From Chloroflexota bacterium (GTDB lineage Bacteria; Chloroflexota; Dehalococcoidia; Lucifugimonadales; UBA3495), in assembly GCA_028875055.1 (NCBI GenBank), contig JAPPGG010000014.1, forward strand, positions 72,722-136,721: a stretch of DNA of 64,000 nt. Direction: 5' to 3'. Positions within the stretch are counted from its first letter, which is position 1; every line of letters begins with the position of its first letter. Both the position numbers and the translations under genes were made by a program. Positions 5,809 to 14,499 of this stretch are shown here, one piece after another. The notes below the pieces were generated by a model, which saw only the letters and a program-made list of their open reading frames with translations, was not told the DNA's origin and ran no database searches.

Positions 5809-5868
5809 ATGACCACAAGGAAATTGCCCTGCCCTCGAACCCCCAATCCTGTAATGGAGAGCCCATGA
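5809..5868 (+). CDS. Short upstream ORF overlapping the radical SAM start
   Basis: A 19-codon ORF starts at ATG 5809 with an unusually good Shine-Dalgarno (AAGGAGGG, 5797-5804) four bases before it. It ends in a TGA whose first two bases are the TG of the ATG of the next gene (ATGA at 5865-5868). The predicted peptide is MTTRKLPCPRTPNPVMESP, with no recognised family. The arrangement fits a translated leader that delivers ribosomes to the radical SAM start by termination-reinitiation. It could also be coincidental. Confidence 0.4.
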   Translation: MTTRKLPCPRTPNPVMESP

Positions 5869-7313
5869 CAAACACCAACCACCCGGCGGAAACTCCCCGG
5901 GTCAAGCAGGACGCCAACTACATTTTTCATGAGCTGACGCGCAGCATTTGTCCTGAATGCAAGACTGTTATCGACGCCCAGATAATCCTGCGGGATAACC
6001 GGGTGTATATGCGGAAGCGCTGCCCCGACCACGGGTGGTTCGAAGGGCTGATCAGTTCCGACGCAAAGATGTATGTGGACTCCATCGGCTTTAACAAACC
6101 TGGTACGATTCCCCTGGATTTCAGCACCGAGGTGGACAAGGGGTGCCCCCTGGACTGCGGCCTTTGCCCGGAACACAAGCAACATATCTGCCTGGGACTG
6201 ATCGAAGTCAACACCAACTGCAACCTCAACTGCCCGGTATGCTTCGCCAACGCCGGAATTGGCTACAGCCTGACTCTGGAGCAGGTTGAAGGCATGCTGG
6301 ACCGTTTCGTGGAAATCGAGGGAGACCCGGAGGTTGTCCAGTTCAGCGGCGGTGAACCAACCATCCATCCCGACCTCCCGGCAATGATTCAGGCGGCCAG
6401 GGACCGGGGTATCCGGCAGGTGATGGTCAACACCAATGGGGTAAGGCTGGCCCGGGACGACCGGTTTCTCCAGGTTATGGCAGCATTGAAACCGGTCATT
6501 TACTTCCAGTTCGATGGGCTTCGGCGCGAGACGTACCAGACCATCCGAGGGGAGGACCTGCTGGACATCAAACTGAGGGCGCTGGACCGGCTTCAAGAGG
6601 CGGGACTGGATGCAGTGCTGGTTGCGGCCATCGAACATGGGGTCAACGTTGACGAAGCGGGCGCCATCGTTGAGTTCGGCCTCCAGCACCCCGCAGTCAG
6701 AGGCGTTGTCCTTCAGCCGGTCACCCATGTGGGTCGCCACATACCCTTCGATCCCATGAAACGGGTGACCATTCCCGACGTCATCCACGGCATTGTGGAG
6801 CAGACTGCGGGAAAGTTCGTACTGGAAGACTTCGTGCCCGTTCCCTGCTGCTTCCCCACTTGCCAGGTAAATTCCTACGCCTATGTTGATGGTGACCGGG
6901 TTACTCCCCTGCCTCGTCTATTGAAAGTTGACGACTACCTGGACTACATCACCAATGTGGCGCTTCCGAAGGTGCCGGAGGCGGCGGCAATCCGTGAAGC
7001 CCTGGAGAGTCTGTGGTCAGCCTCTGCCGTGCCGGGATCCGACAAGGCAGCCAAGCAGTTCGAATGCGCCTGCGGCACCGGCCTGAAGTTACCCTTTGGC
7101 AGCGAGCACTTGAACAAGCACATATTTCAGATTGCTATCAAAGACTTCCTGGATGCCTATACCTTCAACGTAAAACAGGTAATGAAGTGCTGCGTGGCAG
7201 TCCTCGTCCCGGACGGACGGGCCATTCCTTTTTGCGCCTACAACTCGGTGGGCTACCGGGAAGAGGTTCGGGAGCAGCTGACATCGCGCCAGAGGATGGC
7301 TCGGGATGCTTGA
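5865..7313 (+). CDS. Multi-cysteine radical SAM protein, Tes (MJ0619)/TrsS-like
   Basis: A 482-residue radical SAM enzyme with an ordered set of cysteine motifs. Cys29-x2-Cys32 and Cys53-P-D-His56 form a rubredoxin- or zinc-ribbon-like N terminus. Cys94-P-L-D-Cys98-G-L-Cys101-P-E-H follows, then the radical SAM triad Cys119-x3-Cys123-x2-Cys126-F. SGGEPT lies near residue 160, CCFPTC at 328-333, and late cysteines at 401, 403, 442, 443 and 457. This order matches the family that contains archaeal tetraether lipid synthase and the bacterial (seleno)protein TrsS; no in-frame TGA is present. ATG 5865 is preferred over a TTG at 5790 because GGAG lies 5 bases upstream and the extension is not family-like. 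It overlaps the methyltransferase gene by 8 bases. The substrate is unknown. Confidence 0.85.
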   Translation: MTNTNHPAETPRVKQDANYIFHELTRSICPECKTVIDAQIILRDNRVYMRKRCPDHGWFEGLISSDAKMYVDSIGFNKPGTIPLDFSTEVDKGCPLDCGLCPEHKQHICLGLIEVNTNCNLNCPVCFANAGIGYSLTLEQVEGMLDRFVEIEGDPEVVQFSGGEPTIHPDLPAMIQAARDRGIRQVMVNTNGVRLARDDRFLQVMAALKPVIYFQFDGLRRETYQTIRGEDLLDIKLRALDRLQEAGLDAVLVAAIEHGVNVDEAGAIVEFGLQHPAVRGVVLQPVTHVGRHIPFDPMKRVTIPDVIHGIVEQTAGKFVLEDFVPVPCCFPTCQVNSYAYVDGDRVTPLPRLLKVDDYLDYITNVALPKVPEAAAIREALESLWSASAVPGSDKAAKQFECACGTGLKLPFGSEHLNKHIFQIAIKDFLDAYTFNVKQVMKCCVAVLVPDGRAIPFCAYNSVGYREEVREQLTSRQRMARDA

Positions 7314-8124
7314 CGGTCCGTCCGGCGCTGAGGCCAAGGCCTGCTGCGCCGACCTTTACCGGTCGGGCCTGGCCCGCCTGCTCCTGGGTGACACTCTTCA
7401 CCCAGGGGGGTTGCGGCTCACGAATCGTCTCGGCCGGCTGATGGGCCTGGAACGAGACTGGTGGGTGGCAGACCTGGCCTCCGGGACCGGCGCCAGCGCC
7501 GCCGCAATCTCCCGAGCCTTTCATTGTCGAGTCATTGGCATAGAGTACGGCCGCGAAGCCGTACTGGAGGCTCGGAACACTACGGAGAGCTCCCCAGTGC
7601 CATCTCGGGCCTGGTTCGCCCAGGGGGACGCCGAGTCCCCACCACTGAGACCCCAGGCCCTGGACGCTGTGCTTGCGGAGTGCTCGCTTAGCGTCTTTCC
7701 CGACAAGCAGCGGACAATCGGGCGCGCTGTGGATCTGCTGAAGTCCGGTGGGAGAATCGGCATCAGCGACGTGACCGTCGAACCGGGTTGCCTTCCCTCC
7801 CAGTTGAACAATTCCCTGGGCCAGATGCTGTGCGTGACCGGGGCACTGGGGAAGGACCAGTACGGCAAACTATTGGTCGGCGCCGGTATGGTTAACCTCT
7901 ATTCGGAAGACGCCTCGGGTTATGTCGCTGAACTGCTGAACAGGATCAAGTCAGGCATCTCAACCCTCAGCCTGCTGGATTTAGCCGCCCCGGCCATTTC
8001 CGAACCCTCAGAATTTCGGGACCTCCCGGCTGGGTACGACTGGGGAGGGTTAATTGACCTGTTGATTGACCTGGTGGACCAAGGGCTGCTGGGCTACCGG
8101 CTTTACGTTGCCGAAAAGCCGTAA
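7306..8124 (+). CDS. Class I SAM-dependent methyltransferase paired with the radical SAM gene
   Basis: A 272-residue Rossmann-fold methyltransferase. The AdoMet loop is DLASGTGASAAA near residue 57, followed by the acidic GIEYG turn and AQGDAE, with motif IV near LAECSLSVF. The N terminus carries a Cys-Cys pair and an LLGDTLHPGGLRLT segment seen in ArsM-like and DVU_1556/TrsM-like methyltransferases. That resemblance is from memory. After the Rossmann core comes a helical region of about 100 residues with no assigned domain. The ATG lies inside the end of the radical SAM gene (ATGCTTGA, 7306-7313), so the two are translationally coupled and probably act on the same substrate. Confidence 0.85.
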   Translation: MLDGPSGAEAKACCADLYRSGLARLLLGDTLHPGGLRLTNRLGRLMGLERDWWVADLASGTGASAAAISRAFHCRVIGIEYGREAVLEARNTTESSPVPSRAWFAQGDAESPPLRPQALDAVLAECSLSVFPDKQRTIGRAVDLLKSGGRIGISDVTVEPGCLPSQLNNSLGQMLCVTGALGKDQYGKLLVGAGMVNLYSEDASGYVAELLNRIKSGISTLSLLDLAAPAISEPSEFRDLPAGYDWGGLIDLLIDLVDQGLLGYRLYVAEKP

Positions 8125-8676: not shown

Positions 8677-9372
8677 TTGTCCAGCGAACTAGCCCTGATT
8701 CAAAGTGTGATTGCCTCCATAGTTGTGGGCTATCTCCTGGGTTCAATTCCCCTTGCCCACCTGGTGGCCAGGCGCAGAGGCATTGACATATTTGCTACCG
8801 GCAGCACCCGCGCCGGCACGGCCAATGTATTCTGGAATATCAGCCGCAGAAACGGCATCATGGTATTTGCCGGGGATGCGGCCAAGGGATTCCTGGCGAT
8901 CAAGTTTGCCATCCTCTTTGGCGTACCCGACCAGGCCTTGATAGTCGCTGGACTGGCGGCTGTGGCGGGCCATTGGAAGTCGGTATTTACCCGCTTCCGT
9001 GGCGGAGACGGCATGGTAACGCTGCTGGGCGTAACAGTAGCGCTTACCCCCGTCCTTTCCCTGCTGGGCATAGTGGTCGGCATCGTCGCGGTTCTGTTGA
9101 CCCGACGGTCCCCCTTCCGTTCATCTATCGGAATTGCAGCCTGTTTCATTGTGCTCCTGGGGGTCAGCCACACGGTGGGCCAGTTCGAAAACCACCAGCT
9201 CTTCGTAAAGGAACTGTCGGTCCTGGCCCTGCTGGTTATCTTCCACAACGTATTGATTCACCGGATCAGGGCCCCAGCCCTGGCGGAAAGCGCTATCGAT
9301 CCCGATTCGGACGATGACCTGGACGACTTTCCCGACGCCGGACTGGAGCCCGACTTTTCTGAAAAGACCTGA
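8677..9372 (+). CDS. PlsY-like glycerol-3-phosphate acyltransferase family protein (divergent)
   Basis: A polytopic membrane protein of 231 residues with the PlsY fold, a family that transfers acyl groups from acyl phosphate to glycerol-3-phosphate. Motif 1 is GSIPLAHLVARRRG, motif 2 GSTRAGTANVF, and motif 3 AGHWKSVFTRFRGGDG. The canonical versions are GSIP, GSGN-x-GATN and GH-x-x-P with GGKG, so motif 3 keeps His but has lost the Pro and the GGKG Lys. The C terminus is a hydrophilic acidic tail (DPDSDDDLDDFPD). The start is a TTG with AAGGG about 10 bases upstream. A strong terminator follows. A second PlsY-like gene lies at 13726-14499. Confidence 0.8.
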   Translation: MSSELALIQSVIASIVVGYLLGSIPLAHLVARRRGIDIFATGSTRAGTANVFWNISRRNGIMVFAGDAAKGFLAIKFAILFGVPDQALIVAGLAAVAGHWKSVFTRFRGGDGMVTLLGVTVALTPVLSLLGIVVGIVAVLLTRRSPFRSSIGIAACFIVLLGVSHTVGQFENHQLFVKELSVLALLVIFHNVLIHRIRAPALAESAIDPDSDDDLDDFPDAGLEPDFSEKT

Positions 9373-9499: not shown

Positions 9500-10675
9500 T
9501 CACCTTCGGCCGCTCAGATCTTCCTTCAATTCCATCAGCTTCAGGACCCACCCCAGATTCTCGTCGTCGGGAGCTTCGTCAGCGAAATGGGCTTCCAGGC
9601 GTACGGCCTCATCCAGGTATTTGAGGCACTGCTCAATTTCACCCTGGCGAGCGTACTGGCGGGCCGCGTTATACCAGGCAACCGCAAACCTTGAATCCGA
9701 GGACAGAGCCGACAGGTAATCCCTCAGGGCTTCTGCCTCGTTGCCCATGGCCTCGTTAGCCGCTCCCCGGTTGTTGAGCGCCGCCGGAAAGTCCGGCACC
9801 AGTCCCACTGCAGCCGTGTAGTCCTCCAGGGCCCGTTCGTAGTCTCCCAGGGCATCGTAGGCCAGGCCCCGGTTGTTCAGGGCCTCGGCATCCTCGGGAC
9901 GCAGGGACACAACCTCAGTGTAATCCGCAGCGGCTTCCTCAATTTTGCCCAGATAGTAATAAGTCCTGGCCCGGTTGAAGTAGGCGTCCGCGTTTTCCGG
10001 ATTGCAGTCGATCGCCGCCGAGTAATCGGCTATGGCCTGATCGTGCAAGTCCAGTTCGTCCAGGGACGCGCCCCGATTGAGGTAAGCGTTTGACAGCGCG
10101 GGACGAAGTTCAATGGCCCGGTCGAATGAAGAAACAGCCTCCCGGTGCTTCCCGACCCGAGCAAGCACTACCCCGCGATTGAAGTGAGCCTGCAGGTAGT
10201 CGGGGGCCAGGGCAATGGCAATGTCGTAGTCCTCCACCGCCGCGTCGGTTTCGTCCAGGTCGTCATGGGCGTTGCCCCGCTGGTAGTGTGCTTCCGGCAT
10301 ATCAGGCTGCTTCTCGAGCACACGGGAAAGTTCGGTCACCGCCAGTCCCGGCTTCTTCAATCGGATCAGCGACAGGCCCAGATTAAACCTGGCAACCACA
10401 TTGTCGGGATCATTGTTCAAAATTCGGGAATAGACCATGGCGGCATCTCCGTACCGTCCTACGGCAAAGCAGCCGTTGCCGTAAACCTGGTCGGCAGAAG
10501 GGTCCACTTCATCACTGGAGGAGGAGGCCAGTCCGTCAAGCGCATTTTCCATTTCCCTGGCTGCGGTTCCGCGGAGGCGTCCACCCCTGGGAAGTGGGGT
10601 CAAATATGCTACTCCGATGGCATGGTCCTGCAAAAGCAAGATAAGCTTGTCACGAAGGGCGTCGGCTTCTTCCAT
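9500..10675 (-). CDS. Tetratricopeptide repeat protein
   Basis: A 391-residue protein made almost wholly of TPR units, about nine 34-residue repeats from residue 60 to 370. Each shows the pattern of small residues at positions 8, 20 and 27 and a Pro at 32, as in YLNRGASLDELDLHDQAIAD and LNNRGLAYDALGDYERALED. No signal peptide or catalytic domain is attached, so it is probably a cytosolic scaffold. The start is placed at ATG 10675, with AAGG about 9 bases upstream, rather than the first in-frame GTG at 10738. It converges with the plsY-like gene at the shared terminator. The partner is unknown. Confidence 0.88.
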   Translation of the reverse strand: MEEADALRDKLILLLQDHAIGVAYLTPLPRGGRLRGTAAREMENALDGLASSSSDEVDPSADQVYGNGCFAVGRYGDAAMVYSRILNNDPDNVVARFNLGLSLIRLKKPGLAVTELSRVLEKQPDMPEAHYQRGNAHDDLDETDAAVEDYDIAIALAPDYLQAHFNRGVVLARVGKHREAVSSFDRAIELRPALSNAYLNRGASLDELDLHDQAIADYSAAIDCNPENADAYFNRARTYYYLGKIEEAAADYTEVVSLRPEDAEALNNRGLAYDALGDYERALEDYTAAVGLVPDFPAALNNRGAANEAMGNEAEALRDYLSALSSDSRFAVAWYNAARQYARQGEIEQCLKYLDEAVRLEAHFADEAPDDENLGWVLKLMELKEDLSGRR

Positions 10676-13725: not shown

Positions 13726-14499
13726 CTAGTCCTTTTCCGAATGGTCCGGGGCACGGCTGACCCAAACTTCCCGATTGTCCACGTCCCGGTCGTGGACCAG
13801 CCTGTTCAGCATTACCCCGCTCCTGGAAGTATCTTCAGGGAAGCGCAGGGTATTGGACATCAAGCGTTTGGCCACGACCAGCCCAAGAATTGCCACACCG
13901 AACCAGCTGATGGCAACAATCTGAGCTGGAGGTACCTGAATCTGCGGACCATTCGCCACCCAGTTCCAGAGTCCCGGCCAGTCCAGGGCCAGAGCTCCTC
14001 CTGGCAAGTGGGGCAATACGGGCAGCAAGAGCAATGCTATCAGCGCCCACACTGCGGAGCTTTTGCTGACTCTCCAGCCCACCAAATAGATGGAAATGGC
14101 TACCAGGAACAACAGGGGAACCAGGGCAATCAGCATTCCGCAGACCACCATAAGCCCCCGTCCACCCTGGAACCCCAGGAATACTGACCAATTGTTGCCC
14201 GCCAGAGCAATCAGCGGCGGTAGCAGGAACAGCGCAGAGGTCCGCTGCAGTTCCGAACTCTGCTCCGCCAGCAGGTAGGCGAACAATACCGGAGAGAGTC
14301 CCTTAAGAATAAACTCGATACCGGCCAGGGGCATGGCCCACTTTTTCCCGAGCTGCCGAATGACGTTGGAGCCGCCGACATTACCGCTGCCGTATTCCCT
14401 TATGTCAATACCCTTTACTACCCTGGCAATCAGGTAGGCCGTTGGTACCGAGCCAGCCAGGTAGGAATAGAGGTAGAGACCTAACAGTTCCAGGACCAT
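13726..14499 (-). CDS. PlsY-like acyltransferase family protein (second copy)
   Basis: A 257-residue polytopic membrane protein of the PlsY family. Motif 1 is GSVPTAYLIARVVKG, motif 2 is nearly canonical (GSGNVGGSNVIRQLGKK), and motif 3 reads AGNNWSVFLGFQGGRG. In motif 3 the conserved His of GH-x-x-P is Asn and the Pro is Ser, while GGRG keeps a basic residue. A hydrophilic C-terminal tail of about 50 residues follows the last helix. It lies 19 bases after the PHP gene and just before the zinc-finger gene, in one leftward operon. The missing His leaves acyltransferase activity uncertain. Confidence 0.82.
   Translation of the reverse strand: MVLELLGLYLYSYLAGSVPTAYLIARVVKGIDIREYGSGNVGGSNVIRQLGKKWAMPLAGIEFILKGLSPVLFAYLLAEQSSELQRTSALFLLPPLIALAGNNWSVFLGFQGGRGLMVVCGMLIALVPLLFLVAISIYLVGWRVSKSSAVWALIALLLLPVLPHLPGGALALDWPGLWNWVANGPQIQVPPAQIVAISWFGVAILGLVVAKRLMSNTLRFPEDTSRSGVMLNRLVHDRDVDNREVWVSRAPDHSEKD

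Follow-up and report, generated by a model that had tools for sequence, protein, structure and literature searches.

One of the closest described systems to the gene pair studied here is Tes (GDGT-MAS, MJ0619), a radical SAM enzyme that couples lipid tails. In M. jannaschii Tes a lipid radical is captured on a cluster sulfide, so that a lipid-sulfur bond is made to the C cluster, and when SAM is limiting a thiolated lipid is released; the C cluster carries a labile ligand, Met439, and the M439A variant is still active (PMC9433317). Mss, a bacterial membrane-spanning lipid synthase, is likewise a coupler of lipid tails, reported with a catalytic architecture common to Tes (PMC13274423), and is set beside the present pair by description only. 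A second related system is TrsS/TrsM (DVU_1556 family), where a radical SAM enzyme is encoded beside a DVU_1556/ArsM-like methyltransferase; TrsS is listed as a selenoprotein (PMC13188914), and literature searches found no paper on the function of TrsS/TrsM.

The window analysed here, a stretch of 64,000 nucleotides, contains a radical SAM enzyme of 482 aa (5865..7313) followed by an ArsM/DVU_1556-like SAM methyltransferase of 272 aa (7306..8124), and all features of the pair given below lie on the + strand. The first gene starts at ATG 5865, for which the GGAG at 5856..5859 is a likely ribosome binding site, and its open frame extends upstream to TTG 5790. The 8-base overlap of the two genes reported in the preliminary description was found again (7306..7313) and, with overlaps seen elsewhere, makes translational coupling probable. 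The closest named relatives are Dehalococcoidia/Chloroflexi MAGs (~80% identity), in agreement with the Chloroflexota origin that had been thought likely. The identity of the pair is firm: it is a self-contained two-gene cassette from a third branch of the Tes/TrsS superfamily.

The enzyme had been called Tes/TrsS-like, and profile searches confirm the superfamily, with TrsS (NCBIfam NF045646; 355.8 bits, E 3e-106) and Tes (NF045702; 340 bits, E 2e-101) as the top families and all other NCBIfam radical SAM families, the intein form of Tes excepted, below 60 bits. Neither curated cut-off is reached (356 of 490 bits for TrsS, 340 of 450 bits for Tes) and the enzyme falls into a separate superclade in the tree, hence membership in Tes or TrsS proper was rejected. 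Members from other phyla also obtain intermediate scores with both models, and the third branch therefore stands alone rather than being a poor match to either. Pfam identifies PF23545 (HMPTM zinc ribbon, corresponding to the MJ0619/Tes N-terminus) and PF04055 (Radical_SAM), the sole full-length relative in the PDB is M. jannaschii Tes (7tol/7tom; E 3e-85 for 7tol), and the proposed structure prediction recovered the Tes fold, the AlphaFold model (pLDDT 91.3) being matched by Foldseek to 7tom with a TM of 0.82 and 33% identity.

The tree contains a split with 98% support that separates archaeal and acidobacterial Tes, TrsS and one haloarchaeal protein from the window clade, a group with Lgt-like partners and the archaeal paralogues; TrsS forms one long branch, the exact position of which is unsure. 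On the window's side one clade (34 sampled proteins, 96% support) spans Chloroflexota, Actinomycetota, Acidobacteriota, Thermomicrobiota and one gammaproteobacterial MAG, and the superclade that includes it reaches Chloroflexota, Actinomycetota, Acidobacteriota and archaea. Its distribution is patchy, with any match in 47 of 301 Chloroflexota genomes and a close match in 6 of 396 Actinomycetota genomes; in Mycolicibacterium vanbaalenii JOB5, a cultured carrier like Ktedonobacter racemifer and a Streptomyces sp., the pair sits on a plasmid. A phage origin was considered and rejected, as the phages searched gave no match.

Every cysteine motif named in the preliminary description is present in the Tes-like order, from C29 through C457. 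The rubredoxin-like site C29, C32, C53, H56 (5949..6032) corresponds to C9, C12, C33, H36 of M. jannaschii Tes (PMC9433317), and the N-terminal auxiliary cluster motif GC94PLDC98GLC101PEH104 (6144..6176) to C73, C77, C80 and a His of Tes, its C94, C98, C101 and H104 showing no variation across 42 aligned relatives. These are followed by the radical SAM cluster triad C119, C123, C126 (CxxxCxxC; 6219..6242) and by the late cysteines 328, 329, 333, 401, 403, 442, 443 and 457, among which Cys333 (6861..6863), Cys442 (7188..7193, together with Cys443) and Cys457 (7233..7235) occupy Tes-type C-cluster ligand positions. In Tes, conservation at 333, 442 and 457 (window numbering) and of a Met at 426 fits the published C cluster; the window clade retains all three of these cysteines, and the rubredoxin-like, N-terminal auxiliary, radical SAM and C-cluster cysteines are thus at positions identical to those of Tes. 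Unlike in Tes, the labile Met is replaced, by Lys426 in the window enzyme and by Gln, Lys or Arg across its relatives, and most of the window superclade conserves four extra cysteines, Cys109 (6189..6191), Cys328 (6846..6848), Cys401 (7065..7067) and Cys443, which archaeal Tes lacks. TrsS shares Cys109, 401 and 443 and has Cys or Sec at position 328.

The main Lgt group loses the Tes-type set, with Ser/Thr at 442 and Asp/Glu at 457 in 17 of 17 proteins each, yet keeps the second set. Because the two sets are gained and lost separately, the alignments suggest two independent sites, and the extra cysteines could perhaps bind another [4Fe-4S] cluster. As to Cys328, an acidobacterial TrsS homologue (L287) has an in-frame TGA at this position (...FIPPG-U-EEPHC...) and its relative L289 a Cys (...FIPSACEDPRC...), an alignment that rests on the one TGA-bearing example and fits the listing of TrsS as a selenoprotein. 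The pair had been described as Cys-only; a small correction is that Cys328 is homologous to a selenocysteine-type position of a TrsS homologue. The TGA of L287, at ~10198-10200 (G515:C89), is a candidate for where the selenocysteine of TrsS lies.

Since all four Tes metal sites are retained as cysteines within a Tes fold, the enzyme might be expected to perform a Tes-like C-C coupling of two lipid tails into membrane-spanning (brGDGT-like) lipids, while the methyltransferase would introduce a methyl branch or work elsewhere, and bacterial Tes homologues have been proposed as the brGDGT coupling enzymes (PMC8941075; PMC11868695). We regard this as unlikely: the window enzyme stays at its 340 bits while 19 of 99 Acidobacteriota and 75 of 81 archaeal genomes (sampled phyla) exceed the Tes cut-off, it lies across a supported split from Tes, and it differs in the labile Met and the four extra cysteines. 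Nitrosotalea and Thorarchaeota genomes moreover hold a true Tes (690 and 636 bits) alongside a window-type paralogue. Nor is Tes known to require a methyltransferase partner, which counts against the same reading. The suggestion that the pair could be a lipid-modifying or uncharacterised C-C/C-S bond-forming system stands in its second part, which is the best description available, and membrane-spanning lipids are not specifically indicated, given the archaeal coexistence and the differences in defining cysteines. A Chloroflexota genome (G121) was also found to carry a true TrsS (543 bits) and a window-type fragment.

The TrsM/ArsM-like character proposed for the methyltransferase is supported; it scores 113 bits against the DVU_1556-family model NF045667, short of the curated cut-off of 155, and 70 bits against ArsM NF008823, below the cut-off of 263. 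In this protein (METHYLTRANSFERASE), Cys13, Cys14, Cys126 and Cys176 are conserved among 63 aligned partner methyltransferases: the Cys13-Cys14 pair (7342..7347) at 96-98%, and Cys126 (7681..7683) and Cys176 (7831..7833) at 100%, these last two being aligned to the SNCV Cys (ArsM example L105) and the GCxSGA Cys of ArsM. Like ArsM it is a class I SAM enzyme; in contrast with ArsM it is without the GLGCGNP cysteine and carries an HPGGxxLT motif. The fold and profile (AlphaFold pLDDT 90.5) are those of general class I enzymes, near RebM/MitM/phosphoethanolamine methyltransferases, so the substrate is not readable from the fold.

These cysteines also bear on an organoarsenical or organometal chemistry, in which the ArsM-like partner would bind and methylate As(III) or another soft element and the radical enzyme would join it to a carbon chain, yielding an arsenolipid or a detoxified organometal. 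Such a role would be in keeping with the Methanococcoides relative, where the next gene is a methyltransferase exceeding the ArsM cut-off (356 vs 263 bits), with an ArsC-like phosphatase before the Halorarius homologue, with MerA above cut-off at L035 and, at L283, a MerA-like gene that includes a metal-binding domain, and with an ArsP_1/SaoE-like permease after the enzyme at three Ktedonobacteria-type loci (L043:9185-11574, with a 4-base overlap; L044:7679-10137; L092:7893-10497), the last being a hint of organometal export. It nevertheless appears quite improbable, as an ars or mer operon is missing at most loci, nothing ties the Lgt-partnered form to arsenic, TrsM too has ArsM-type cysteines in settings unrelated to arsenic, and the genome of the window encodes another ArsM elsewhere and no MerA above cut-off. 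That ArsM (276 bits, above cut-off; G000:C68:178476-179192) would make arsenite methylation in the window genome independent of the cassette. A mercury role was rejected, since MerA occurs in few loci, none is above cut-off in the window genome and most loci are without mer genes.

Compared with TrsS/TrsM, the window pair differs in its scores (356 of 490 and 113 of 155 bits), in the extra CC pair of its methyltransferase and in gene order, the methyltransferase coming after the radical SAM gene in the window and before it in the TrsS system. It is distinctly improbable, in our view, that the pair serves to synthesise or repair a small redox cofactor or to modify a protein, a role TrsS may have in the DVU_1551-1557 system, its resemblance to lipid enzymes being purely ancestral. 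The TrsS score slightly higher than the Tes score, the Cys109, 401, 443 and Cys/Sec328 positions held in common with TrsS, and a TrsS-TrsM operon with C-GCAxxG-C-C, zinc-ribbon and CoA-ligase-like genes all speak for such a function; however, the DVU_1551-1557 companions, present at L050, were looked for near the window pair and are absent there, the sole TrsS in the tree is the long branch of unsure placement, and the alternative Lgt-like partner suggests a membrane substrate.

The partner genes were surveyed at 117 loci; these include some close relatives, and the partnered loci therefore do not amount to 100 independent events. An ArsM-like methyltransferase was found at 65 and an Lgt-like protein (PF01790) at 35, both together at none and neither at 7, the remaining 10 being cut by contig ends. 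The methyltransferase is the immediately next gene in 61 of its 65 loci and overlaps in 35 of those 61, and within the window's own family the methyltransferase lies near the enzyme gene, in the same direction, in every untruncated carrier; the pairing, whose absence from close relatives would have spoken against the preliminary description, is thus conserved. On the tree the partner has switched at least three times, three changes being forced by the starred branches, and six loci inside the window clade itself have the Lgt-like partner (L041, L042, L058, L076, L079, L093).

The Lgt family alkylates thiols with diacylglyceryl. In the Lgt-like partners both arginines aligned with R143 and R239 of E. 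coli Lgt are kept (100%), the HGG histidine is lost and the GRxGN asparagine has mostly become cysteine; with the HGG histidine lost, the reaction of the Lgt-like partner is uncertain. Loci L106-L134, L041-L047, L058, L076 and L093 (e.g., L107:7200-9708), from Bacillota, Bacteroidota, Planctomycetota and Melainabacteria, show a three-gene system in which the Lgt-like protein and the Tes-like radical SAM enzyme are joined by a small membrane protein whose final transmembrane segment repeatedly bears a cysteine. The small membrane protein could be a lipidation target. RiPP-like precursor peptides were rejected, the small genes at Lgt-type loci encoding short membrane proteins rather than leader peptides.

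Family members without the enzyme, among them G301 (same genus), G308, G313, G316 and G322, have the CoA-transferase, plsY and TPR genes that flank the window's pair adjacent and in one orientation, so that the two genes of the pair are evidently gained or lost together. For the same reason the neighbouring plsY (8677-9372) was rejected as a clue to a lipid function: CoA-transferase, plsY and TPR stay together without the pair. Two PlsY-like acyltransferase genes lie within 6 kb in the window (8677-9372 and 13726-14499), and several plsY copies are present per family member. The earlier impression of no obvious substrate gene nearby was thus correct, plsY being an unrelated neighbour and the other window neighbours housekeeping genes.

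The proposed survey of conserved neighbourhoods, in addition to the conserved methyltransferase pairing, revealed thiol-redox genes as recurrent at methyltransferase-type loci. Counts were made at such loci outside the window's family, 42 for training and only 11 held out, with neighbour families chosen from the same training loci before testing. An FAD disulfide reductase was found at 20 of 42 training and 5 of 11 held-out loci, 1 of 35 Lgt loci and 5 of 20 control regions, all of the latter from Chloroflexota genomes while many methyltransferase-type loci are not, and the association is modest. Rarer neighbours, each in 0 of 20 control regions, are CcdA, TlpA-like thioredoxins, DUF3179 (absent from all 11 held-out loci), DUF427, SRPBCC and CDP-alcohol phosphatidyltransferases, the last at 5 of 42 training, 2 of 11 held-out and 0 of 35 Lgt loci. 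Methyltransferase-type surroundings are thus marked by thiol-disulfide redox, accompanied by a few genes of lipid metabolism and now and then by mer genes, which is a pointer and not proof. In Nitrososphaeria a thioredoxin-like protein of ~100 aa that contains a CxEC motif is encoded after the pair (L087:2681-3769, L090:2764-3773), and corrinoid protein and URO-D-type methyltransferase genes were read by eye around the archaeal relatives L285 and L286.

We tentatively infer, giving it somewhat less than an even chance of being right, that the radical enzyme forms a C-S (or other soft-atom) bond on a hydrophobic substrate and that its partner caps the product. The 5'-deoxyadenosyl radical would abstract H from an unactivated C-H bond in a hydrophobic substrate, probably a lipid-like one, and the resulting carbon radical would be trapped at the Cys328 site, where the cysteine may be a ligand, a nucleophile or a redox residue, or by a sulfur belonging to the C-terminal auxiliary cluster, giving the C-S or other soft-atom bond; the new thiol-like group would then be methylated by the coupled ArsM-like methyltransferase, whose four conserved cysteines would suit a soft nucleophile, or in sister lineages capped by the Lgt-like diacylglyceryl transferase that replaces it. 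C-S formation is within the known chemistry of the family, because Tes makes a lipid-sulfur bond (PMC9433317). We counted in favour of this mechanism the family and fold, the tree, the exclusivity and switching of the partners, the ArsM-type methyltransferase cysteines, the ArsM-scoring partner of the Methanococcoides relative, the TGA/Cys position at Cys328, the thiol-redox and lipid neighbours and the cassette behaviour, and against it the housekeeping nature of the window's own neighbours, the modest FAD reductase association and the lost HGG histidine of the Lgt-like partner; the ArsM-type cysteines could also serve arsenic, another metal or structure instead of a thiol product. A more specific version, in which the Tes-fold radical enzyme sulfurates an unactivated lipid-tail carbon and the ArsM-like or Lgt-like partner caps it, giving methylthio-lipids or thioether-joined lipids depending on lineage, seems rather unlikely.

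These results affect how Tes homologues are used in lipid surveys, where bacterial homologues, notably those of Chloroflexota, have been taken to indicate a potential for membrane-spanning lipids under loose thresholds such as E <1e-30 with >=30% identity in a Black Sea study (PMC11868695); another survey used E <1e-50 (PMC8941075). Window-type proteins, ~33% identical to M. jannaschii Tes, would probably pass such thresholds, and since this branch differs in cysteines and partners, counts of brGDGT potential may be overstated. The chemistry of the third branch is probably not lipid fusion, and the branch needs to be set apart before genomes are credited with lipid potential. The exclusive choice between methyltransferase and Lgt, together with the Cys328/Sec match, makes the function of bacterial Tes relatives directly testable. 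A further Tes-like group (~320 bits, 600-770 aa) was observed in Acidobacteria (L229-L239 and L155); it is without the N-terminal auxiliary cluster cysteines and branches within acidobacterial Tes.
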